This document shows, piece by piece, positions 6,148 through 60,402 of a stretch of DNA of 64,000 nucleotides. Each line of letters starts with the position of its first letter. The first letter of the stretch is position 1. The DNA lies in contig JAEPLN010000001.1 of the NCBI GenBank assembly GCA_017644425.1, forward strand, positions 1,426,001-1,490,000. The letters are read 5' to 3'. This stretch comes from Prochlorococcus marinus CUG1433 (GTDB taxonomy: Bacteria; Cyanobacteriota; Cyanobacteriia; PCC-6307; Cyanobiaceae). Below the pieces are notes generated by a model that was given only the letters and a program-made list of their open reading frames with translations, had not been told where the DNA came from and did no database searches. Position numbers and translations under genes: made by a program.

Positions 6148-7935
6148 ATGATTAATATAATATTATTATCAATAGTTTTTTTATTTATTTTTTCTAATAA
6201 TTTTAAAATAGTTGAAAATAATAATGAAATTTTAATATCTAATTATATTACATCTTTCACATTATCAATATCAATAATAGGTTCAATTTCTTTAGGATTA
6301 ATATTTATTAATTCTGTACAATTTCCAATTATTATAATATCATTATTGATATTTTTTTCTTATTTCTTAATCTTTAATATAAACTTAAAAAATATAATTA
6401 ATTTTTTTATAAGTTGGAAGATTTTACTTAATACTTTCTTATTAAAAAATAGTTTTAATAAATTTTTAGTATTTTTAGTATTCTATCTTTATTTATTGTC
6501 ATTTGGTCCAATTAATCACCCTGATGCGACCACAACATATGTAGGTTATCCATACCAATTTTTTATAAAAGGTAAACATTTTATTGATGGAGGTTTATTC
6601 CAAGGCATTTTAGGTATTTCTGATTTTGCGAATTTAGCCTTCTTTCAAGAAAAATCAATTTGGTTAATAAGAATGATTCAGGCAATTCCGATTTTTATGA
6701 TCGTATCCATTTTTATTAAAAGAGGGAAAAGTAAATTATTTATATTATCCTTTTTAACTACCCCCGTATTTATACAATGGTTAACTATTGGAAAATTTTT
6801 ATTATTTCCAGACTTGGCAGTAACCATTACCTATCTTGTATGGGATAAATATAGAACTAAGAATAATCTAATTAACCTTTTAATTTTAATAGTTTTATCA
6901 ATATCATTTAAAATATCAAGCCTTATTATTTGTATCCCTATTTTTTTTCATATATTATATGATTTGGTTTCTACAAAAAAATTAAAGTCTCTTTTTCTAA
7001 TAGAAAATAGCTTGAGATATCTCTTTTTATTTTTAGCAATAGGAGTATTAGCTGAAATACTTTTATATAGATTTTATGTAACTGGTAATTTTTTATATCC
7101 TATATTTAATAGTTTTCTTATTCCAGATAATCAACAAATGATTGACTTTGAGAATGATTTAAAACAATATATATATTCTGATGGATTACCTTTTATAACT
7201 ACAAATGTTAATTTATTAGGAATGATTTTAGGTCCTGCTAATACATTATTAATAATATTTTTACCGTTTTTAAGTCTGCTAGCAAAAAATGGAAATAAAT
7301 TTATTAAAAGTAATTTTGTAGCAATAACTCAGATTATCTTACTTTTAATTTTATCAAATGGTAGGGCAGATTATTTTGCCTCACCATTGGTCATTTTACT
7401 TATGAAGAATAGATTATTTAATTTAAATAATTACACTATAAAAAAAATACCAAAAGTAAAATTTATTTATTTTAAAAAAATATTTTTATTAATATTATGG
7501 CTTCAAATTTTAATATTTTCATGTATTACATTACTCTCAATTTATCAATCAATATTTGGGATATTTAATTATCAATCTTCAATGAATAGATTTGCATATA
7601 ATTATGATTTAACTGCAACTTTAAATAAGGTTTCTAAAGAGCCAATTATAAATTTTTATGATAGAACTCCTCTGTTTTTTCTAGAAAAAGATTACGTACA
7701 TGAAGATGTATTTAAAAAATGCCTTTACTACAATGATAAAGAATTTGGAAAAGATTCCATTGAAAATTGCTTTAAAAATTTCAAGGCAAAGTCAATTATT
7801 ATAAATAGTGAAGCTTTAAAAAATAATAAAAGTTTCATTTGCAAAAAATATTCTACAAATTATACGTCTAGGAATCCTTTTAAATTCAGGAAAAGAGATT
7901 TCGATTTATGCGATATCAATAATTTAGAATATTAA
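6148..7935 (+). CDS. Large polytopic membrane protein (putative GT-C-like glycosyltransferase)
   Basis: About 595 aa from the ATG at 6148 (a TTG at 6139 in the same frame is less likely). There are at least ten hydrophobic segments and a soluble C-terminal region of about 100 aa. The first sizeable outside loop holds HPDATTTYVGYPYQF, an acidic loop of the type found after TM1 of GT-C glycosyltransferases and LIC_10190-type membrane proteins. It sits between a GtrA-like flippase and a GtrB-like GT2, the position of the serotype-specific Gtr enzyme. It probably transfers a lipid-linked sugar to the surface glycan on the periplasmic side. No closer assignment is possible from sequence alone. Confidence 0.55.
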   Translation: MINIILLSIVFLFIFSNNFKIVENNNEILISNYITSFTLSISIIGSISLGLIFINSVQFPIIIISLLIFFSYFLIFNINLKNIINFFISWKILLNTFLLKNSFNKFLVFLVFYLYLLSFGPINHPDATTTYVGYPYQFFIKGKHFIDGGLFQGILGISDFANLAFFQEKSIWLIRMIQAIPIFMIVSIFIKRGKSKLFILSFLTTPVFIQWLTIGKFLLFPDLAVTITYLVWDKYRTKNNLINLLILIVLSISFKISSLIICIPIFFHILYDLVSTKKLKSLFLIENSLRYLFLFLAIGVLAEILLYRFYVTGNFLYPIFNSFLIPDNQQMIDFENDLKQYIYSDGLPFITTNVNLLGMILGPANTLLIIFLPFLSLLAKNGNKFIKSNFVAITQIILLLILSNGRADYFASPLVILLMKNRLFNLNNYTIKKIPKVKFIYFKKIFLLILWLQILIFSCITLLSIYQSIFGIFNYQSSMNRFAYNYDLTATLNKVSKEPIINFYDRTPLFFLEKDYVHEDVFKKCLYYNDKEFGKDSIENCFKNFKAKSIIINSEALKNNKSFICKKYSTNYTSRNPFKFRKRDFDLCDINNLEY

Positions 7936-7987
7936 TTATTCATGAAAAATGATTTAATTAAATAAGTAATATTTGTTGTTAATTAAT

Positions 7988-8950
7988 ATGAATAAAATTA
8001 TTGCCGTAATGCCTTGTTATAGGAGTTCTAAAATAGCGCCTAAGATTGCTAAAGATGTACTAGGTTATGTTGATAGATTAGTTTGTGTTGATGATGATTG
8101 CCCAGAAAATACAGGAAAATCTATCGAAAGTTCCTTAAAAAGTGATCATTTGGATTTGATTTATCATGATAGGAATAAAGGTATTGGCGGAGCAATGAAA
8201 ACTGGAATTAAATATGCTTTAACTTTAAATCCTGAAATAATAATTAAAATAGACTCTGATGGACAAATGAATCCTGCTTTAATTCCACAATTATTAGAGC
8301 CACTTCTTAATGGATCATCTGAATTTACCAAAGGCAATAGATTTACGAACCCTAAATTTATTACTAACATGCCTATCGTGAGAATTACTGGAAATATTGG
8401 TTTGGGATTTCTGACTAAATTATCTACAGGGTATTGGGAATTATTTGATCCAACCAATGGATTTTTGGCAATAAGAAGTAATGTTTTAAGAGGAATATCT
8501 CTTGAAAAGATTGATAATGGTTATTTCTTTGAAACCGATCTACTTTTTAGATGTGCTCTTAGTAATGTCTTAGTTAGTGAGATACCGATGGATGCGTTTT
8601 ATGAGGATGAAAAATCAAGTTTAAGCCCGTTTAAAGAGTTTTTCAGGTTCACTTGGAAGCACATAAATATTTTCTTGAAAAGATTAACTTATCAATATTT
8701 TTTATTAGATTTTAATCCTGGAAGTCTTAGTTTATGTTTAGCAATTATTTTTGGATTAATTGCACTGTTTGTTGGTTTAATAAGTCGTTTTTTTTATAGT
8801 AGTTTAGATGTTGAAACTCCTCTGGGAGGTCAAATTTTGTTTTTAGCTACTTCTTTAATTTCTAATCAGTTATTTATAAGTTTTATATATTATGATGCAT
8901 CACAAAAACCTTTGTTGAGGAGACTTAAATACTTAAAAAATAGTTTATAA
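7988..8950 (+). CDS. GT2 glycosyltransferase with membrane tail (GtrB/DPM1-like)
   Basis: About 320 aa starting at the ATG at 7988; the earlier in-frame TTG codons at 7973 and 7976 would only add LLIN. The GT-A fold shows an N-terminal strand, VDDDCPENTG, and the metal-binding DSDGQ at 89-93. Two hydrophobic helices at the C-terminus (about residues 240-295) match the polyprenyl-phosphate sugar synthases GtrB and DPM1. It should attach a sugar from UDP- or GDP-sugar to undecaprenyl phosphate at the cytoplasmic face, for flipping by the GtrA-like protein. The asparagine synthase-like gene starts 3 bp after it. Confidence 0.8.
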   Translation: MNKIIAVMPCYRSSKIAPKIAKDVLGYVDRLVCVDDDCPENTGKSIESSLKSDHLDLIYHDRNKGIGGAMKTGIKYALTLNPEIIIKIDSDGQMNPALIPQLLEPLLNGSSEFTKGNRFTNPKFITNMPIVRITGNIGLGFLTKLSTGYWELFDPTNGFLAIRSNVLRGISLEKIDNGYFFETDLLFRCALSNVLVSEIPMDAFYEDEKSSLSPFKEFFRFTWKHINIFLKRLTYQYFLLDFNPGSLSLCLAIIFGLIALFVGLISRFFYSSLDVETPLGGQILFLATSLISNQLFISFIYYDASQKPLLRRLKYLKNSL

Positions 8951-51894: not shown

Positions 51895-51996
51895 TTTTGA
51901 TATAAAAAATGATACAAGTTGATGTATAGAAACTCTCTTTTAGAGGCCTTGTTGTGAAGATAGATATAAAGTAACCATAGATACTATTTTGAAAAA

Positions 51997-53019
51997 GTGC
52001 AAAATCTAAAGAAACTAATTTATTCCGCACTAACTTGTTCATATCTTTTCAATTTTTCTGTACCTGCCAATTCAGCAGAAAAAGAAGTCAGAGTTTTTTC
52101 AGGTAGACATTACAACACCGATAGAGCTATATACAAAAAATTTGCAGAAGAAACGGGAATCAAAGTTAGACTTATTGAGGCAGCAGGAATATCTTTAATT
52201 GAACGCTTGAAAAGAGAGGGAAAGAATTCTCAGGCTGATTTAATATTGTTGGTAGATGCAGCGAGAATTACAAATGCTGCTAAAGCTGGCTTGCTTCAAA
52301 GTGTTGAATCAAAGTCTTTGGAAAATGATATCCCATCTGGATTAAAGGACAGAAACAAAGAATGGTATGCATTAACTAGAAGAGTTAGAGTTATGGTTGT
52401 AAATCCAAAAGTTGTCGATATTAGCAAGATTAGAGACTATACAGACTTAGCTGATCCATCATTAAAAGGAAAAGTTTGCTTAAGAAATAGAAAAAGTCCA
52501 TATAATCAATCTTTAGTCGCTAATCAAATAGTTAATAAAGGCGAATCAAAAACTAAATCTTGGTTAAAAGGAATGATTGATAATGTTTCTCAACCTTTCT
52601 TCCCTGGTGATATTTCAATAATTAGAGCCGTTTCTAAGAAAAAATGTGGAGTAGGAATTGTTAATCATTATTATGTCGCAAGAATGTTAGCTGGTGTTAA
52701 TGGAAGAAGAGATTCTTTATATGCAAAGCGAACATCCGTAGTCACTCCAAATCCTGCCCATGTAAATATTAGTGGTGGTGGTGTAGCTAAATACGCAAAA
52801 AATAAAGATGAAGCTATCAAGCTTCTTGAGTTTTTAGCGTCCCCGAGAGGAAGTAAAGGGCTCGCTGCTCCAACTTTTGAACATCCATTAAAAGAAGTTA
52901 ATCAAAACAATATTGTCAAAAATTTTGGAGAATTTTTTCCTGATACGGTTACTGTAGAAGAACTTGGAGAATATAACTCTATGGCAATAAGATTAATGAA
53001 AGATGCAGGATGGAATTAA
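51997..53019 (+). CDS. futA: Ferric iron ABC transporter substrate-binding protein (FutA/IdiA)
   Basis: A 340-aa periplasmic binding protein, start GTG. Signal peptide to about residue 27 (LTCSYLFNFSVPANSAEK). The body has VFSGRHYNTDRAIYKKFAEETGI, the iron-binding Tyr pair in NHYYVARML and NISGGGVAKYAKNKDEAIKLLEFL. It delivers Fe(III) to the FutBC permease. It is expected to be induced by iron starvation; a loose AT-rich Fur-like stretch near 51898-51915 is the only candidate operator I can see. Confidence 0.92.
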   Translation: MQNLKKLIYSALTCSYLFNFSVPANSAEKEVRVFSGRHYNTDRAIYKKFAEETGIKVRLIEAAGISLIERLKREGKNSQADLILLVDAARITNAAKAGLLQSVESKSLENDIPSGLKDRNKEWYALTRRVRVMVVNPKVVDISKIRDYTDLADPSLKGKVCLRNRKSPYNQSLVANQIVNKGESKTKSWLKGMIDNVSQPFFPGDISIIRAVSKKKCGVGIVNHYYVARMLAGVNGRRDSLYAKRTSVVTPNPAHVNISGGGVAKYAKNKDEAIKLLEFLASPRGSKGLAAPTFEHPLKEVNQNNIVKNFGEFFPDTVTVEELGEYNSMAIRLMKDAGWN

Positions 53020-53081
53020 AAATTAAGATAATAAGTTAGATAATAACTTATCTTCTTATTAGATTCATAATTATAAGAGGA

Positions 53082-53166
53082 GGAGAGGTGGCTGAGTGGT
53101 CGAAAGCGAACGACTCGAAATCGTTTAATAGGAAACTATTCGTGGGTTCGAATCCCACCCTCTCCG
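53082..53166 (+). tRNA. tRNA-Ser(CGA)
   Basis: An 85-nt class II tRNA. Acceptor stem GGAGAGG/CCTCTCC with discriminator G. The anticodon stem AACGA/TCGTT has loop CTCGAAA (anticodon CGA), followed by a long variable arm (TTAATAGGAAACTATTC), and the T arm is GTGGG/CCCAC with TTCGAAT. No CCA is encoded. Its 3' end adjoins a small accessory segment. Confidence 0.97.
53156..53166 (+). repeat. Putative attachment site, left copy (inside tRNA-Ser 3' end)
   Basis: CACCCTCTCCG, the last 11 nt of tRNA-Ser including the 3' acceptor strand and discriminator. The same 11 bases occur at 55285-55295 in the same orientation. Duplicated tRNA 3' ends are the usual trace left by tyrosine recombinase-mediated integration. 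Confidence 0.5.
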
Positions 53167-53183
53167 GATTTGTTTTAGTGTCT

Positions 53184-53221
53184 GACTCTGTCAGAGGCAT
53201 TCTGTTAGAGTCAAAATTTTT
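53184..53221 (+). terminator. Hairpin downstream of tRNA-Ser, possible terminator
   Basis: GACTCT (53184-53189) pairs with AGAGTC (53207-53212), and inside it CAGA pairs with TCTG around loop GGCAT. A T-run follows at 53217-53221. It could end tRNA transcription or be an arm site of the former integrative element. Confidence 0.5.
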
Positions 53222-53324
53222 GTAAATTACTGCTGTAGCAATAATTATTTTATTTTCTTCTTAAAAACAGTTTCTGATAATGTCAGGTTGATTCAGAGAA
53301 GATCAAACCTTTAATATTTAAAAA

Positions 53325-53362
53325 GTGTTGGTGGAAATGTTGGGGGAAATGTTGGGGGAATG
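53325..53362 (+). repeat. 12-bp tandem repeat, left array
   Basis: A short array of the GC-rich unit AAATGTTGGGGG: one diverged partial unit (GTGTTGGTGG) and two perfect ones. It stands out from the surrounding AT-rich DNA. A shorter copy of the array lies at 55191-55215, near the other end of the putative element. Confidence 0.7.
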
Positions 53363-53390
53363 GGTTTGATTCTGCAGAAATAATTTTAAA

Positions 53391-53821
53391 TTACTTCGAA
53401 TCATAAATCCGCATAAAAACCCCGACTGGTATAAGAGTTGTACCAATTAATAATACTTCGACATTACTAAAAAAATTTAAAAAAAATAGCATAAAAATAA
53501 TGCTGCCAAAAACGATATTAAATTTAGATATATAGCCTCAATCTTCTCCACCTAAGAGACTAAAATTAGATATAAAAAATAAAAAAGGATTGAATTTGCG
53601 ATAAATTTTGAGGAGTCAAAAGAATTAAACCACATTAAGAAACTAGTACTTCCAAACCCGTCTCCGGGTTGCCAAGGTTGCAAATTAACTGCGTAAAGAA
53701 ATATCAAAACAAATAAATAAATTAGTAAAATGGCAAAATACCACTTTGAAACTTTATAAAAATATGTTTTGAAAGATTCTATTTTTTTTATCTGAAGTTT
53801 TAGTTTCCTTTGAATTAAGAT
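53391..53821 (-). pseudogene. Decayed membrane-protein gene
   Basis: On the minus strand, an open frame without a start codon covers 53552-53821 and encodes a membrane helix (KWYFAILLIYLFVLIFLYAV) and a loop with LQPWQPGDGFGSTS. It ends at a TAG at 53552-53554. A neighbouring frame then continues sensibly (GGED, then KFNIVFGSIIFMLFFLNF, ending at TAA 53391-53393), but is broken by a TGA at 53538-53540 where a Trp codon would fit. So at least one frameshift and one nonsense change separate it from a whole protein of about 140 aa with three membrane helices. Its family is not known. It overlaps the tail of the TPR pseudogene. Confidence 0.5.
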
Positions 53822-54244
53822 TTATTATCTGATCTATTTTAATTAAATCACTATTTGCCCCTTTGTCGTCATTTATTTGTTTTCTACTTTTATATCTGAA
53901 TTTATAGGCATCCACAAAATTTTCATCAATTTTAATAGATATTGAAAAATGCTCTATTGCTTTATAAATTTGTTCATCTCAAAAAATATAATTCCCATAT
54001 CAAAATTTGCCATAGGACAGTTTGGGTCCAATTCATATTCTTTTTTGTAGTCTTCTATCGCATTTGCAAAATTACCTAATTTTTTATTTGCATAATCTCT
54101 TTTTGAAAAAGCATCAGGATTTTTTGGATTTAATTTAATTGATTTATTAAGGTCTTTAATTGCTAAATCAAATTTTCCATTATTAAGTTTTGAAATTCCT
54201 AAAGTTAAAAATTCTTCACTTGAGAGTAATTTATTTTCTTTCAT
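53754..54244 (-). pseudogene. TPR-repeat protein gene broken by a frameshift
   Basis: From ATG at 54244 the frame encodes 96 aa with two TPR units (FLTLGISKLNNGKFDLAIKDL, DAFSKRDYANKKLGNFANAIEDY) and stops at 53954-53956. Near 53975-53987, a missing base puts the rest in another frame, which reads on as EQIYKAIEHFSISIKID, a further TPR helix pair, to TAA at 53754-53756. The restored product would be about 162 aa. The break is next to a run of A's, so either a true mutation or a sequencing slip is possible. Confidence 0.65.
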
Positions 54245-54282
54245 AACTCCTTATTTAGAAAAACTAATAAAAAATTTATGAT

Positions 54283-54774
54283 TTAATCAAAAATATTATT
54301 GAATTCTTTTTGAAGGGATTTGTAACCTTTATTTAAATCGTTAATTAGGTTGTTTACATTATCTTCAATATCTTCTTTTAAATCTGAATAAGTTTCTTTG
54401 ACCACTTGTTGAATTGCTCCATAAAATATTGATTCAAATGTACCAGGTTGAAACTTTTCAATCCAATATCCACCAAGACAATATATTTTTGTAGGAATTA
54501 ACTTAACAAAAGAATCCTCAGATTCTGATTTGAATGTTTCAATTATTTTTGTAGTTAAATCGCCTCTTGAATTTTCAACACCAAAAGATGCAACTCCTTT
54601 GGCAATCATTTTAGTTGTACCATCTATTTTGTTTGTACTATCAAATGTATTTTTTGCCACTATTTTCTCTAGTGAGAAACAATAATCAGTAAGGTTAGTA
54701 TTTTCTTTTTCAGTTGGATAAATTAATCCAAATAAACTAATTACAAATACTGAAGGTATAAGTAATTTTTTCAT
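54283..54774 (-). CDS. Exported protein of unknown function
   Basis: A 163-aa protein with a signal peptide (KKLLIPSVFVISLFGLIYP). The mature part has two cysteines (DYCFSLE, IYCLGGYW) and a long helical C-terminus (DLKEDIEDNVNNLINDLNKGYKSLQKEF) that could form a coiled coil. No family recognised. It lies between the two putative attachment sites, on the same strand as the TPR remnant, and looks like element cargo. Confidence 0.6.
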   Translation of the reverse strand: MKKLLIPSVFVISLFGLIYPTEKENTNLTDYCFSLEKIVAKNTFDSTNKIDGTTKMIAKGVASFGVENSRGDLTTKIIETFKSESEDSFVKLIPTKIYCLGGYWIEKFQPGTFESIFYGAIQQVVKETYSDLKEDIEDNVNNLINDLNKGYKSLQKEFNNIFD

Positions 54775-54852
54775 CTGTAATTTTTATAAAGATTATCATA
54801 ATAAATATTTTATTTCTTTGGTGTTTAAGATTAATATTATTCTCAATTTTTA

Positions 54853-55062
54853 ATGAAGGAGCATAAAAACAAGGACGGGAGTCTAATTCTTTGGATTTTG
54901 AAAAGTTTGACTTTACCTGTTGCAATTTTAATTATCCCTTCAATATTATTTATGGTCTTTATTGCAAGTAATTTTATTTGGTGTGATTGGAATTATGAAA
55001 AAGGATTTATATCAAAGAGTGAATCATTAGATTGTATGTGGGTAGATCTCGAAGAAGATTAG
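54853..55062 (+). CDS. Small membrane protein of unknown function
   Basis: A 69-aa protein with a charged N-terminus (MKEHKNKDGS), one long hydrophobic stretch (about 12-46, enough for one or two helices), and an acidic tail with two cysteines (FIWCDWNYEKG, LDCMWVDLEED). No relation to a known family can be stated. It lies within the putative integrative element. Confidence 0.5.
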   Translation: MKEHKNKDGSLILWILKSLTLPVAILIIPSILFMVFIASNFIWCDWNYEKGFISKSESLDCMWVDLEED

Positions 55063-55190
55063 GGAGGTCTGCGTCCATTTCATACAGAAACCGCAATCCA
55101 ACCTCCAATTAATGCTTAATTTAATCTAAATATTAAAAATGAAATATAAATTTCGTTTTTCTCTAATTTTTATTTACTCAACATTCTGAA

Positions 55191-55215
55191 GTGTTGGGGG
55201 AAATGTTGGGGGAAT
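55191..55215 (+). repeat. 12-bp tandem repeat, right array
   Basis: GTGTTGGGGG followed by one full AAATGTTGGGGG unit and AAT. It is the two-unit counterpart of the three-unit array at 53325-53362, in the same orientation. Confidence 0.7.
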
Positions 55216-55236
55216 TAGACCTAATTTGTAAAATAT

Positions 55237-55289
55237 GGGTGTCAGTTGGTGTCTGATAATATCTGATGAAACCACATCAACTAACACCC
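55237..55289. repeat. Inverted repeat abutting the right attachment site
   Basis: The 15-bp arm at 55237-55251 (GGGTGTCAGTTGGTG) pairs with the arm at 55275-55289 (CATCAACTAACACCC) with one mismatch and one G-T pair, separated by 23 bp. The right arm runs into the duplicated tRNA 3' end. It may be a recombinase-binding or arm-type site. Confidence 0.55.
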
Positions 55290-55295
55290 TCTCCG
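55285..55295 (+). repeat. Putative attachment site, right copy
   Basis: CACCCTCTCCG, an exact copy of the last 11 nt of tRNA-Ser (53156-53166) in direct orientation and 2.1 kb downstream. No further tRNA structure is present here. Confidence 0.5.
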
Positions 55296-55513
55296 TAGTA
55301 ACTTACAAGAATCCTTTATTATAAAATTTTATTTATCTTATCTCCATAAAAAGGATTATATTTTGTACATCTTCGATATTTCAATTTAAAGACCGTTGGC
55401 ATGAATCTTAGATTTACATATATACAATTAAAAAAAAATTTGGTTGGGAGAAATTTATAATTATTTTTAATCTAAGAGTTAATATAAAATTAATTTAAAT
55501 TGAAAATATTTTT

Positions 55514-56350
55514 ATGGTAAAAAAAAATCTTTTTGTTACTTTAGGTAAATATGGAAAAGTCAGCAAAAATCTAGGAAAAGAATTTGTTAAAAATGATCTT
55601 GAATACGAATCAATTTCATGGAAAGATATAAATAATAAGGGACTTTTATCAAAATTAATAAATTTAAGATCAACAATAAAAAATAAATACAATGATATTT
55701 TATTTATAGATTGTTTAATTGGAAGTAACAATTATATTGAAGAATCAAATCTTCATCTAAATAATTTAAAAGAGACAAAGAAAATATTTCCCAACTCTAT
55801 ATATATTTTTCTCTCAACCTTTGAACCAGATTCAAATTATTTTACATCATACAGAGATACTAAAAGGAAATTAGAAAATCTTATTTTTAAAAATAACGGT
55901 TCTGTGATTAGAATTGGATGGGCTATGAATAGAGATGATGAATTATTATTGTCTAAAAGGAAAAGAAATTTTCCAAAGTTTGCAATTAAGGATTTTTCAA
56001 ATAACCATATCTTAATTCCAGGAACAAGGATTAATGATCTATTAATGTTTTTAAATAAGAAATTAGAAAATGGAAAACTTTACAGATGTTACTCTTATTT
56101 TTTATTCATGATTTTTGAATTATCGTTAGTGCCAAGATTATATTTTGAAAAAAAGTGCAAAACAAATTTTTCACTTCCTCTACCTGTTGGTATAATAATT
56201 TTTTCTTTAAGAACAATAATAAATATCCTAAAAAAAATTCACATTAATACGAGATTAATTGACATAATAGAAAAGCCTTATTCATTATTGATACAACAGA
56301 CCATAATTAAAAATTATAAGAAATCACAAGTAACGTTAAATTATGAATGA
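55514..56350 (+). CDS. SDR-like (NAD-dependent epimerase/dehydratase-like) protein
   Basis: A 278-aa protein. The N-terminus LFVTLGKYGKVSKNLGKEFV follows the SDR nucleotide-loop spacing but with a weak glycine pattern. LSTFEPDSNYFTSYRDTKRKLENL holds a Ser...Tyr-x-x-x-Lys catalytic-type motif, then VIRIGWAMN as in extended SDRs. The C-terminal third is hydrophobic in patches (FLFMIFELSLVPRLYF, VGIIIFSL) and could touch the membrane. It overlaps the next gene by 8 bp. A sugar-nucleotide function is likely but not proven. Confidence 0.6.
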   Translation: MVKKNLFVTLGKYGKVSKNLGKEFVKNDLEYESISWKDINNKGLLSKLINLRSTIKNKYNDILFIDCLIGSNNYIEESNLHLNNLKETKKIFPNSIYIFLSTFEPDSNYFTSYRDTKRKLENLIFKNNGSVIRIGWAMNRDDELLLSKRKRNFPKFAIKDFSNNHILIPGTRINDLLMFLNKKLENGKLYRCYSYFLFMIFELSLVPRLYFEKKCKTNFSLPLPVGIIIFSLRTIINILKKIHINTRLIDIIEKPYSLLIQQTIIKNYKKSQVTLNYE

Positions 56351-57689
56351 AGAACTATTTGACATCTCTATTTTAGGAGGAGGAATATCATGTCTTGCAT
56401 CATTGAAATATTTAATAAGTCTTAAATCTAATCTGAAAATATGTATTATTTGTAGTAATAAAGATTTTAATAATAAAAAAGTATCTAAGAAATATTATCA
56501 AAGCTTTTCACTTAGTCATTTAAAAGTATCTAATAATATCAGAAAAAATCAAATAGATAAGTCAATACTAACTTCTTCAATAGATTACAAACTTTCAATA
56601 TTATCAACACATAATTTAGGGGGATTAGCTAGTTTTTGGGGTGGAGGGTTTTTCCCAAGTTTTGATAAAAAATCTTCTACTGAAAGAAAGAAATATGAAT
56701 TTATAAAAAAAATATTTTCAATATATGAGATGAATAACTCTTTGGAGAGTTTTAATTTTTCTTCTTTTGTTACTAAATTTGAAAAACTTAGATGCCAATT
56801 TTTAATTAACTCCAATTCTAAAAAATATTCTTCACCCTCTATCTTAGACCCAAGAATTGAAATAGAAAAAATTTGCATTCAAAACAATATCCCAATTTTT
56901 AAGGATTATTTCATTGAAAAATTGGAATATGATAAAGATAAAAATAATATCAGGATTATTTCAAAAAATAAACCAATTTTTACTAGAAATATTTTGTTAG
57001 GTTTCGGAGTTTTTAATACTCCAAAGATTTTAATAAAATCAAAAATTTTAAAACAAAAACAATTTTATTTTTATGATCATTACCTATATCGCATACCTTT
57101 AATTGATTTGAAAAATATTTTTTTTAGTCAAAAAAACAAGCTTATTAAAAAAAATATTTCTTCCTTGGAATCAGCATTTTTAAAAAAAAATGATTACAAA
57201 GAAATATTTTTAGGGATTTATAAAATTAATAATAAAATTGTTAAAAACTTTCCAAAATTCAATCCCGTTATACAGTATTTAATTAAGAAAAATATTCTAA
57301 TATTTAGCCAAATATTTTTTTCTGATGAAAAAGAAAAATTCAGAGTTAAAGGTGTATACGAAAATGATAATTACTTCTTTGAAAAAATAAACTATAAAGG
57401 CTTAGATATTTGGAGTAAGGTAAATATATTTTTTTTCTATTTATTAAAAGGCTATATTCCTATGCCATTTAAAAGTTTACAAAAATTCGGTTCCTCTTAT
57501 CATGTCCATGGTTCTTTAAAAGACTTAAGATTAATAAATCTTTCAGGTAGCAATAAAATTAAGTGTCAAATTCAGATAATAGATAGTTCAAGCTTAAAAG
57601 TTATTGAGTCTCCACCAAGCTCATATTTTTTAATTCATAACGCTATAGAAAGGACAAAAATTCTCGTAAAAAATATACAAATATCGTAA
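56343..57689 (+). CDS. FAD-dependent oxidoreductase, GMC-like
   Basis: A 448-aa flavoprotein. FAD is bound at ISILGGGISCLASLKYL (8-24), and GGLASFWGGGFFPSF fits the second GMC signature region. HVHGSLKD and the C-terminal IDSSSLKVIESPPSSYFLIHNAIERT block match the end of GMC oxidoreductases, where the active-site His/Asn lie. Alcohol or sugar oxidation is the likely chemistry. It overlaps the SDR-like gene by 8 bp, forming a two-gene unit. Confidence 0.7.
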   Translation: MNEELFDISILGGGISCLASLKYLISLKSNLKICIICSNKDFNNKKVSKKYYQSFSLSHLKVSNNIRKNQIDKSILTSSIDYKLSILSTHNLGGLASFWGGGFFPSFDKKSSTERKKYEFIKKIFSIYEMNNSLESFNFSSFVTKFEKLRCQFLINSNSKKYSSPSILDPRIEIEKICIQNNIPIFKDYFIEKLEYDKDKNNIRIISKNKPIFTRNILLGFGVFNTPKILIKSKILKQKQFYFYDHYLYRIPLIDLKNIFFSQKNKLIKKNISSLESAFLKKNDYKEIFLGIYKINNKIVKNFPKFNPVIQYLIKKNILIFSQIFFSDEKEKFRVKGVYENDNYFFEKINYKGLDIWSKVNIFFFYLLKGYIPMPFKSLQKFGSSYHVHGSLKDLRLINLSGSNKIKCQIQIIDSSSLKVIESPPSSYFLIHNAIERTKILVKNIQIS

Positions 57690-57946
57690 ATCTAAAGACT
57701 GATTTGGTTTGAGTTAAGAATTTAGTTTTTTTAAATAAGCATTAAACTTCATGAACAAAGAAGTTTTTGATTTATTAGGGCCTTAAACTTATTTTTCTAA
57801 TATTTCTCTGAATAAATAGGGTATCAATCCCCTAAGAAGAGATTCATTTAAAGATCTTCGCCGTTTATTAATACAAACAGAATAACTACTATAGGAAGAG
57901 TCAATAAGAGGAAACGCTCAATTATTATTAAGTGATCTCAGAATAT

Positions 57947-58198
57947 TTATTTTTCCCAAAAAGGGTCCGTAGTTAGGGAAACTTTTAATGGACATTTTCT
58001 ATCACTTTTAATATTACTTATACAAGCCCTTATTGTTTCACCATTTACATCTATTTCACACGCACCACAACTTCCTGTGAAACACCCAGCTGGTATTTCT
58101 AAACCTGCTTTTTCAGCAGAAGAGAACCAATCATCTCCTTCTGAAACTAATGTCTCTATATTGTTTGGCCATATTACTTTTATATTTGTTTCTTTCAA
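57947..58198 (-). CDS. 2Fe-2S ferredoxin
   Basis: An 83-aa plant-type ferredoxin. The cluster ligands are C39, C44, C47 (GCFTGSCGACEID) and C59 (TIRACIS). The chain is shorter than photosynthetic PetF and differs from it, so it is a secondary ferredoxin with a specific partner. It overlaps the cobQ stop by 4 bp, which makes the two translationally coupled. Confidence 0.9.
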   Translation of the reverse strand: MKETNIKVIWPNNIETLVSEGDDWFSSAEKAGLEIPAGCFTGSCGACEIDVNGETIRACISNIKSDRKCPLKVSLTTDPFWEK

Positions 58199-59724
58199 CT
58201 TAAAAATGATTTGAGATTTAGATGTTTGTGGAATTCATTAGCAAGATTATCAATAATGAATTGTCTCTTCTCTTTATAAGATATTGATTTTTTACTTAAT
58301 ATTGGTAAATTTTTACTCTTCCTTATTAAATTAATATATTGCTCTCTCCAACTGTCATTTTCAAAGATCCCATGAATATATGTTCCTGCAATAGTTCCGC
58401 CTTTATTATTTTCTTTGTACCAACCAAGATTTAAATCTTTAAATATAGGATTAATCTTTAATGAACTTTGGATTTCATCTAATACAGTTTGACCATTATG
58501 AATTTCAAATCCATTAATATCTGAGTGGCATGGCCATAAAGATTCAGAGTTGATTTGACGTGTTAATTTTTTTTTAAAGAAAGTCGTTTTTAATGGTAGT
58601 AATCCAATACCTTTAATTTTTTGTTCAGAGTAATTTTTGGAACCCTCTTTAAGATAAGGGTCTTCAAGTGTAGTCCCTAACATTTGTAAACCTCCACATA
58701 TTCCAATAATATTTCCTTTGTTATTTGAATAGTCCCTTATATCCTGAGATAAGCCAGAATTTTCAAGAAATATTTGATCTTTAATCGTTTGTTTACTGCC
58801 GGGCAGAATAATGAAGTCATACTTATTTAGGTTCTGTGATTTTCTAATCCATTCAATTAATATTGTTTCTTCATTATCGAGTGGATCAAAATCTGAAAAG
58901 TTACTAATAGATGGTAATTTTATAATCCCAACTTTGATGTCAGGATTTTTAAAAAGTGATTTTTTTTCTATTAAATCTAAAGAATCCTCTGGTGGAAATG
59001 AATCATTTAACCATGGAATAATTCCAATAACAGGGATTTGAGTTTTATTCTCTATCCATTTTTTCCCGTCTTCAAATAATGAAAGATCTCCTCTGAATCT
59101 ATTTATAATAATTCCCTTAATAAGTTTTTTTTCTTCTGGTTTCATTAATTCAAGGGTCCCTATTATTTGTGCAAATACTCCTCCCCTTTCAATATCAGTA
59201 ACCAAAATGCAATTTGCATTTAAGTACTTAGCAACTCTTAAATTAGTCAGATCTCTATGAATCAAATTCATCTCTACAGGACTTCCAGCCCCTTCAATAA
59301 TTAATCGACAATTTGGATTCCGCTTATAAATAGACTTTAAACTTTTTTTTATTACTTCCCAGCCAGGAATAAACCAATCTTGGTAGTAATCTTTTGCAGT
59401 TGTTGTTCCTACACTTTTACCTAGGTGAATAACCTCACTTATTGAATTTCCTTGTGGTTTTAATAAAATTGGATTCATCTCTGTAGAGGGATTAATACCA
59501 CAAGCAAAGGCTTGAAGAGCTTGTGAATATGCCATCTCTCCACCTTCCCAATCAACCCAAGCGTTGTTACTCATATTTTGCCCTTTAAAAGGGATTGGTT
59601 CTTCTCCTAGATTTTTAAGAATCCTGCAAATAGCAGTAACTGTTAAAGATTTGCCTGCTCCACTGGAAGTGCCTAGGACCATTATTGGTTTCTTTATTTC
59701 ATATAATTTTGCTTCTAATTCCAT
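58195..59724 (-). CDS. cobQ: Cobyric acid synthase
   Basis: A 509-aa amidotransferase. The N-terminal ATPase domain begins VLGTSSGAGKSLTVTAICRIL and has KGQNMSNNAWV and IIEGAGSPVEMNL. The C-terminal class I glutaminase has the nucleophile Cys in IIGICGGLQMLG and the His in GTYIHGIFEND. It amidates four side chains of adenosyl-cobyrinate a,c-diamide in (pseudo)cobalamin synthesis. A ferredoxin gene follows with a 4-bp overlap. Confidence 0.95.
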   Translation of the reverse strand: MELEAKLYEIKKPIMVLGTSSGAGKSLTVTAICRILKNLGEEPIPFKGQNMSNNAWVDWEGGEMAYSQALQAFACGINPSTEMNPILLKPQGNSISEVIHLGKSVGTTTAKDYYQDWFIPGWEVIKKSLKSIYKRNPNCRLIIEGAGSPVEMNLIHRDLTNLRVAKYLNANCILVTDIERGGVFAQIIGTLELMKPEEKKLIKGIIINRFRGDLSLFEDGKKWIENKTQIPVIGIIPWLNDSFPPEDSLDLIEKKSLFKNPDIKVGIIKLPSISNFSDFDPLDNEETILIEWIRKSQNLNKYDFIILPGSKQTIKDQIFLENSGLSQDIRDYSNNKGNIIGICGGLQMLGTTLEDPYLKEGSKNYSEQKIKGIGLLPLKTTFFKKKLTRQINSESLWPCHSDINGFEIHNGQTVLDEIQSSLKINPIFKDLNLGWYKENNKGGTIAGTYIHGIFENDSWREQYINLIRKSKNLPILSKKSISYKEKRQFIIDNLANEFHKHLNLKSFLS

Positions 59725-59790
59725 TGGTAATTTATATTAATTTTGAAATTTATTAATTAGTAAATTGAATTATAATTTGGAAAAAAATTT

Positions 59791-60402
59791 GTGTTAATTC
59801 TAGCCTCTGCTTCTCAATCTAGAAAGAAATTACTAGAAAATTGTCAAATTGAATTTATCCAAAAATCAAGTGACTTTGATGAAACTACTATTCAAGAAAA
59901 GAATATATTAAATTTAGCTTTGGAATTATCTTTTCAAAAGGCTAATAATTTATCTGAAAATATTCAAAACATATCATTGCCCGAAGAATTTAATTATGGT
60001 CCAGTGGAAATACTTGGGTGCGATTCAATTTTTGAATTTAAAGGAGAAGCTTATGGAAAACCATCTAATAAAGAGGAGGCATTTATTAGATGGAAAAAAA
60101 TGTCTGGAGAATTTGGATTTTTACATACTGGTCATACTCTAATGATTGGGAATTTTGATTCAACTTCCAAAATTTTTAAAATCGCTGAAATAATAAAAAA
60201 AACAGTAAGTTCAAAAGTTTATTTTTCTAAGTTGGAAGATTGGGAAATTAAGAGTTATGTAGATACAAATGAACCTTTATATTGCGCCGGAGGATTTGCC
60301 TTGGAAGGTGTAGGCGGTAAATATATAGAAAAAATAGAGGGTTGTTTCAGTAATGTAATGGGTTTAAGCCTGCCATGGCTTAGAGAAAATTTATATAGAT
60401 AA
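59791..60402 (+). CDS. maf: Maf-like nucleotide pyrophosphatase
   Basis: A 203-aa protein starting at GTG. It opens [17 protein letters not shown] and has the [14 protein letters not shown] and [17 protein letters not shown] motifs of the Maf/HAM1-like family, with [21 protein letters not shown] at the end. It hydrolyses modified or canonical nucleoside triphosphates to monophosphates. Divergent from cobQ over 66 bp; convergent with psbC. Confidence 0.92.

Follow-up and report, generated by a model that had tools for sequence, protein, structure and literature searches.

A recombinase-free cassette behind tRNA-Ser(CGA) in Prochlorococcus marinus CUG1433 as a probable non-autonomous integrative element

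The genomes of Prochlorococcus are small and contain almost no recognisable prophages, and how their accessory genes are reshuffled is a standing question. The locus studied here raises this question on a small scale. In a 64,000-nucleotide stretch of the P. marinus CUG1433 genome (contig JAEPLN010000001.1, positions 1,426,001 to 1,490,000; hereafter the window), which belongs to a nearly closed assembly of 1.70 Mb in four contigs (G000), the last 11 bases of a tRNA-Ser(CGA) gene (CACCCTCTCCG) are repeated in direct orientation 2.1 kb further on (Table 1). This repeat had been pointed out in a first-pass annotation and was confirmed by sequence search. Is the DNA between the two copies the debris of an integrated element, or a unit that moves? 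The comparisons reported here favor the second answer: with a probability of about 0.8, the element would be a non-autonomous integrative cassette and not simply a dead remnant. Four observations lead us there, namely ends composed of a core and arm-like sites, signs of movement, the lack of a recombinase of its own and the existence of integrase elements built alike; together, they suggest a cassette that is moved in trans.

Conserved ends around the tRNA-Ser core

On its own, the 11-bp match would be modest evidence. No further match to the core exists in the window on either strand, even with one mismatch, and the shuffled control gave 0.11 matches on average, two matches being reached in one of 100 shuffles. 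It is rather the flanking ends that decide that the pair is real. Behind the core within the tRNA (the left attachment site, attL) lies a left end of about 160 bp followed by 12-bp direct repeats, here called arm-like sites (GTGTTGGNGGAA), and 12-bp repeats of the GTTGGGGG type are found inside both core copies, that is, also ahead of the right attachment site (attR). Of the 18 right ends paired by script in the loci, 16 have their first GTTGG exactly 92 bp from the core, and two, which contain one more arm, have a spacing of 104 and 112 bp. As a control, 400 pseudo-att pairs were drawn at random from the window, and in none of them were both ends equipped with arm-like repeats. A chance match of 11 bp, which the first-pass annotation had left possible, is ruled out by this control, by the fixed 92-bp spacing and by the conserved ends with their arm-like sites.

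These ends are widespread. Counting matches at E up to 0.001, the weakest of which lie near 20 bits and are in some cases partial, the right-end model R1 matched 58 of the 266 genomes of the genus and the left-end model R2 matched 65. A looser two-arm pattern was present in 30 of these genomes and its reversed control in none, and the 23-base double repeat, with at most one mismatch, occurred in 20. Wherever the stretch around this double repeat includes a tRNA-Ser, it is tRNA-Ser(CGA) or tRNA-Ser(TGA) only; four of the loci (L110, L112, L120 and L122) have no tRNA-Ser in reach. The exact double repeat was found in 18 contig stretches, labelled Prochlorococcus in 16 cases and 'Synechococcaceae' and 'Synechococcus' in one case each. 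Outside the genus, R1 weakly recognised (21-35 bits) 16 of the 201 genomes of the family that were sampled. Twelve stretches from 11 of those genomes were inspected: 11 contained more than one exact core copy and six had tRNA-Ser(CGA) in reach.

Several end families use the same core and each has its own arms of 11 or 12 bp. This was seen in a scan of 40 tRNA-Ser(CGA) loci, many of them chosen for carrying such ends and with L046, in which one base of the tRNA core differs, set aside; most arms are situated 80-120 bp ahead of attR and 108-180 bp behind attL. Among the att-to-att segments longer than 330 bp in which an arm pair was recognised at both ends, the only ones entered in the permutation, 25 of 27 had matching arms. 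Shuffling gave a mean of 14.2 matching segments and never reached 25 in 2000 rounds; the 27 segments include the integrase element L189, L116, which spans two elements, and the near-identical cassettes of G175, G203 and G204. Related segments with recognised ends range from 0.26 to 6 kb. At eight loci, the segment comes down to 259-281 bp, with left and right ends sharing one arm set (L032, L035, L036, L121, L190, L191 and L198, plus L037, of 263 bp, whose arms were not recognised).

Movement between diverged strains

A relative of the window cassette is informative about its history. Compared with G149, the cargo is 94.4% identical over 859 bp, the left end 93.5% over 108 bp and the right end 80% over 294 bp, as against 71.5% for futA-tRNA and 68% for cobQ, one of two neighboring genes that we take to encode a ferredoxin-like protein and cobyric acid synthase. 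The G149 cassette is devoid of the piece at 54254-55023, which comprises the 163-aa open reading frame (ORF) and the greater part of the 69-aa one. Beyond the attR of G149, however, there is a gene related to that of the 163-aa ORF, with 70% identity in DNA.

A comparison of G175, G203 and G204 is stronger evidence for movement than that of G149. These genomes carry a sister cassette of 1930 bp that is 99.6-99.8% identical among them, while their futA genes are 81.5% (G203-G204), 83.2% (G175-G203) and 92.6% (G175-G204) identical (G021 was left out of this comparison and G227 has no futA). Within the sister cassette, each 320-bp bin has an identity of 99.1-100%, which falls to 34-42% directly after attR; on the other side, identity is 88-96% in the tRNA and 80-92% in futA and the spacer. 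The right neighbors past attR differ in all three genomes. Since these are, judging by their names, single-cell genomes of one plate series, cross-contamination calls for caution, but it would not produce contigs that are contiguous, differ in their flanks and show borders at the core. The ORFs of at least 70 aa in the sister cassette encode a 359-aa and a 76-aa protein, neither of them a recombinase, the former closely resembling a G227 protein with an HSDR_N domain (Pfam). In G223, the same 1368-bp cargo (93.6% identical) lies between ends that are only 72-75% alike, which means that cargo changes ends. Judging from these comparisons, the stretch in the window is in all appearance a real, recently mobile DNA cassette.

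The site behind this tRNA is a hotspot. Using the window positions 51900-60400 as query against 40 genomes, the futA-tRNA block and the ferredoxin-cobQ block were found on one contig in 37. The gap between both blocks, read by eye from the table of matches, goes from about 35 bp in G004 to 21.5 kb in G180 and is 4.8 kb in the window, so neither of the two outcomes that would have spoken against an element, an identical 2.1 kb in all close strains or a constant length at the tRNA, was encountered. G004 represents the empty site, the clean tRNA-Ser junction whose search in relatives had been proposed: it has one core and the right block follows about 35 bp further. Together with the direct-repeat ends, it upholds the initial proposal of a tRNA-Ser-targeted integrative element. 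The 40 scanned loci contain 95 core copies, with at most one mismatch and including the tRNA's own, up to seven per locus, and more than one core is present in 33 of them.

The cargo of the window cassette is listed in Table 1. The tetratricopeptide repeat (TPR) reading continues in another frame to about 53754, and the gene matches PHROGs families of unknown function; the 163-aa ORF has one weak tail match there (E 0.07) and the 69-aa ORF none. Three relatives of the 163-aa ORF lie at loci without a tRNA in the stretch and are of no help to the case for mobility. The enclosed genes had been described as decayed or unknown, and this holds for the frameshifted TPR gene, while the ORFs of 163 and 69 aa are open. 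The reported lack of a recombinase was borne out: neither recombinase nor transfer genes were detected in the cassette with the ORF list, Pfam, PHROGs and NCBIfam, no search having been aimed specifically at conjugation genes. At other loci (L184-L187), the cargo of cassettes whose arms are of the GTGTTGGGAGAA type is defence-like, with HNH, GIY-YIG or HSDR_N proteins beside others without Pfam match. Between the window cassette and the conserved right block there are two further ORFs of 278 and 448 aa (55514-57689), which the cassette model does not explain; they have no Pfam match above the cut-off and no relative among the matches listed in the 40 genomes.

Table 1 Features of the cassette and its surroundings (window positions)
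Feature	Position	Strand	Basis
tRNA-Ser(CGA), attachment gene	53082..53166	+	ARAGORN; Rfam tRNA, 63 bits
attL core CACCCTCTCCG, within tRNA 3' end	53156..53166	+	exact repeat search
Conserved left end with GTGTCTGA-like repeats	53167..53324	+	17 left ends aligned; model R2
Three left arm-like sites, 12-bp period: GTGTTGGTGGAA, then ATGTTGGGGGAA twice	53325..53360	+	repeat search; putative recombinase-binding sites
TPR-repeat protein, 96 aa, frameshifted relative to the G149 copy	53954..54244	-	Pfam TPR
163-aa ORF, probably exported (signal peptide by eye)	54283..54774	-	ORF list, Pfam scan
69-aa ORF	54853..55062	+	ORF list, Pfam scan
Two right arm-like sites (GTGTTGGGGGAA ATGTTGGGGGAA)	55191..55214	+	repeat search
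Conserved right end	55215..55284	+	15 right ends aligned; model R1
attR core CACCCTCTCCG	55285..55295	+	exact repeat search
Presumed ferredoxin-like and cobyric acid synthase genes, right edge of hotspot, outside element	57947..59724	-	ORFs; block conserved in 40-genome comparison

Source of the recombinase and weighing of the explanations

If the cassette moves without a recombinase of its own, the enzyme has to be sought elsewhere. Recombinases were searched by tblastn with 18 queries in 65 loci, which cover the vicinity of the two-arm pattern in each of the 30 genomes that have it (16 queries and 54 loci in a first round). Matches were found only in L115, L188, L189, L210 and L317, and none in the window's own 64 kb. 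L188, L189 and L210 are integrase elements, and the L317 stretch (G252) has no core, arms or tRNA. L189 and L210 are located at tRNA-Ser(CGA) and have ACACATGTAAAA arms, and an arm of this kind is also found in short recombinase-free segments of L190 and L198. In L293 (G394, from another genus of the family), an integrase with Arm-DNA-bind_3 and Phage_integrase domains lies about 170 bp behind tRNA-Ser(CGA) and is followed by a serine resolvase gene; TGTAGGGG-type repeats occur just before the integrase start and TGTAGGGGGATT arms before attR, and the right end is recognised by R1 with 29 bits. The Prochlorococcus genome G177 has a relative of this integrase (438 aa) at about 0.9 kb inward of a right end whose arms are GGTGGGGGAAAT and where the core CTCCCTCTCCG corresponds to the tRNA-Ser(GCT) end of G025 and G199, the G177 stretch itself having no tRNA. 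Such relatives are present in eight of 50 end-bearing genomes and absent from the assembled sequence of the remaining 42. The window's exact arm stands beside none of the recombinases whose surroundings were examined, which come from Phage_integrase and divergent-recombinase searches of the 266 genomes (among the matches listed), from the window's own genome, from the L293 relatives and from the tblastn search.

Other recombinases deserve mention. In L115 (G186, 6803-7999), a 398-aa tyrosine recombinase lies upstream of tRNA-Ser(TGA) and points away from it, several recombinase-free segments following the tRNA; it is a candidate for a parked enzyme. In the window genome, a 389-aa tyrosine recombinase is found directly before a cobO-like gene (identified by eye; L235 and L270, contig C1, about 431-433 kb), with no tRNA within 18 kb. 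An open frame of equal length is present in many of the 266 genomes, among the matches listed, and this could possibly be a host-encoded enzyme for the cassettes. The same genome has a cassette of about 3.2 kb and the same build at tRNA-Pro(TGG) (L238, contig C4, 2586-7436), comprising a partial copy of the tRNA, ATATGACATAAATATGACATAAATG repeats close to either end and McrBC-like genes (by eye), and without an internal recombinase; upstream of this tRNA, and pointing away from it, lies a divergent tyrosine recombinase of 462 aa. A second divergent enzyme of 417 aa (L239, contig C3, 1836-9950) has a neighborhood that we take to be a phosphonate/phosphite uptake and oxidation cluster. In G062, G065 and G121, a recombinase of the 417-aa type lies 2-3 kb from a 468-aa one.

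The layout of the ends and the established knowledge of lambda- and P4-type integrases suggest how the cassette might work. An 11-bp tRNA-Ser core with arm-like sites at a fixed distance would be the design of a tyrosine recombinase substrate. Another element, whether visiting or resident, would provide the recombinase in trans; this enzyme would bind core and arms and excise the cassette as a circle, which would insert at the core behind tRNA-Ser or at a core left by another cassette, giving rise to stacking. Every insertion would restore the tRNA end, and the cargo between the arm arrays could be swapped or lost there.

Several facts sit uneasily with this explanation. Around the two-arm pattern in the 30 genomes that have it, the search revealed no recombinase gene enclosed by ends of the window's arm type; the window genome shows only the core tyrosine recombinase and the two divergent ones, and the L115 recombinase lies outside the cassettes. 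Two of the 27 permutation segments have unlike arms, the G149 cassette is split over two contigs, its continuity being presumed, and the frameshift in the TPR gene means that the window copy may be ageing. Four patterns gave no match in viral contigs, nor did one search of phage records for the cassette. Seven of the 40 loci show one core only, one of them being the empty site, and at L274-L278 there are 0.25-5 kb at tRNA-Ser(CGA) without a second core (eight of nine loci were reported in this check, L279 giving no line). Not all the variable DNA at tRNA-Ser(CGA) is explained by the cassette model.

Other scenarios may be considered. A tRNA-Ser integrase element could have lost its recombinase by deletion, leaving immobile debris: the lack of a recombinase and the broken TPR gene would agree with this, and the versions of about 260 bp could be deletions between left and right arm repeats. 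Nevertheless, such debris is difficult to reconcile with a window cargo that is 94% identical across strains with 68-72% flanks, with a recombinase-less sister that is nearly invariant in three diverged strains and bordered by cores, and with ends conserved in dozens of genomes, and we regard this scenario as unlikely. The first-pass annotation had hesitated between a deletion remnant and a non-autonomous satellite; the latter is the better description, the former being weakened since recombinase-less cassettes moved recently from att to att. It is also conceivable that the cassettes are carried along in larger tracts of chromosomal replacement whose ends fall near the tRNA by coincidence, the more so as tRNA-Ser(CGA) copies share their tRNA and futA context, which makes an exchange through the flanks possible. 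Yet identity in G175, G203 and G204 is 99-100% inside the cassette, lower in tRNA and futA and lost right after attR, and cassettes with the same ends also occur at tRNA-Ser(TGA) and in second or third position of arrays; homologous exchange thus seems very improbable.

The cassette could finally belong to the tycheposons, whose hallmark is a deep-branching tyrosine recombinase, and be moved by that enzyme. The genus, the tRNA target and the cargo-carrying habit are the same, and the window genome has its two divergent recombinases, presumably of the tycheposon kind, one of them beside the like-built McrBC-like cassette at tRNA-Pro. However, although relatives of these two enzymes are present in 99 of the 266 genomes, only one pair of an end match and a divergent recombinase within 20 kb was found among the matches listed (G252), and this end is a weak partial left-end match in the stretch mentioned above, which holds no core, arms or tRNA. 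The integrases with a matching end grammar are of the Arm-DNA-bind kind. The assignment as tycheposon-type in the first-pass annotation was therefore not retained: the hallmark is absent and the enzymes with the matching end layout are arm-binding and phage-type. A tycheposon derivative seems to us improbable, slightly more so than immobile debris.

A non-autonomous cassette moved in trans would be a compact and testable answer to the question of accessory-gene reshuffling, as ends of about 200 and 105 bp would define the mobile unit. The transfers appear recent enough to show in single cells of one plate series, restriction-like proteins are part of the cargo, and other genera of the family have ends of the same grammar. 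Provided that the recombinase acts in trans, minute cassettes can spread without the cost of an enzyme of their own, and the ends could be used as a tool to insert DNA in this genus, whose genetic engineering is difficult. A bolder picture, which we put forward tentatively and find rather doubtful as a whole, is that the tRNA-Ser 3' ends of marine picocyanobacteria may be an integron-like entry point where recombinase-free cassettes with their own arm codes stack and trade cargo across end types. The recombinase might then come from elsewhere, be it the core 389-aa enzyme beside the cobO-like gene, an enzyme parked upstream of a tRNA as in L115 or passing integrase elements, and the versions of about 260 bp might be the minimal mobile unit.

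Comparison with known systems

The cassette shares features with several known elements. Integrase elements with an Arm-DNA-bind_3 domain (L189 and L293), which we take to be P4-like, have core and arm repeats too, but their integrase lies beside the tRNA and the window cassette has none. Unlike in integron arrays, no integrase gene was found by tblastn beside the array in the 64-kb window. The repeats seen are the tRNA core and the arms. Unlike prophages or phage satellites, the window cassette has no phage structural, packaging or replication genes detectable with PHROGs.

The published systems are compared here through excerpts of the respective papers. Tycheposons, of 4-200 kb, integrate at one of seven tRNA genes (PMC10872708); they are likewise tRNA-targeted, cargo-carrying and found in the same genus, but the window cassette lacks a recombinase and is only 2.1 kb long, and membership is not supported. 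The ssrA islands of Dehalococcoides are arranged in tandem with a short tail repeat, and 15 of them are without integration module and have been suggested to be cis-mobilizable (PMC3146451). They differ in their transfer-messenger RNA target and larger size, and the end grammar seen here does not appear in the excerpted description. In the additive flexible genomic islands of Methylophilaceae, tRNA-tail repeats behind the tRNA bound cassettes of 330 bp to 42 kb (PMC10872708), and those of Actinomarinales are similarly built, with cassettes of very variable size (PMC7771536). The locus studied here is alike in that tRNA-tail repeats bound variable cassettes at one site, but the excerpts on those islands mention no arm-like sites at fixed distance, matching arms or arm subtypes.

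Cis-mobilizable elements (CIMEs) keep attL and attR, have no integration or transfer genes and are stacked at one gene; they are described as decayed integrative and conjugative elements (ICEs) or integrative and mobilizable elements (IMEs) moved by accretion (PMC5704250). The window cassette also keeps both sites, has no detected recombinase or transfer genes and is stacked at one gene. As to a conceivable descent from ICEs or IMEs, integrase elements with like ends exist, and an accretion would fit G149, where a left end of the family is immediately preceded by an integrase element. Compared with CIMEs as excerpted, the differences are that short ends are conserved in many genomes, with sizes down to about 260 bp, and that diverged strains have copies without a recombinase in common, as exact units. 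Within the literature searched, such cassettes were not found described for Prochlorococcus; the tycheposon paper, which lay outside that search, may mention some. The strict end grammar, the minimal forms and the exact att-to-att sharing of recombinase-less units were not seen in the excerpts of the known descriptions; in its manner of working, the window element is best likened to a CIME or to a cassette of an additive island.

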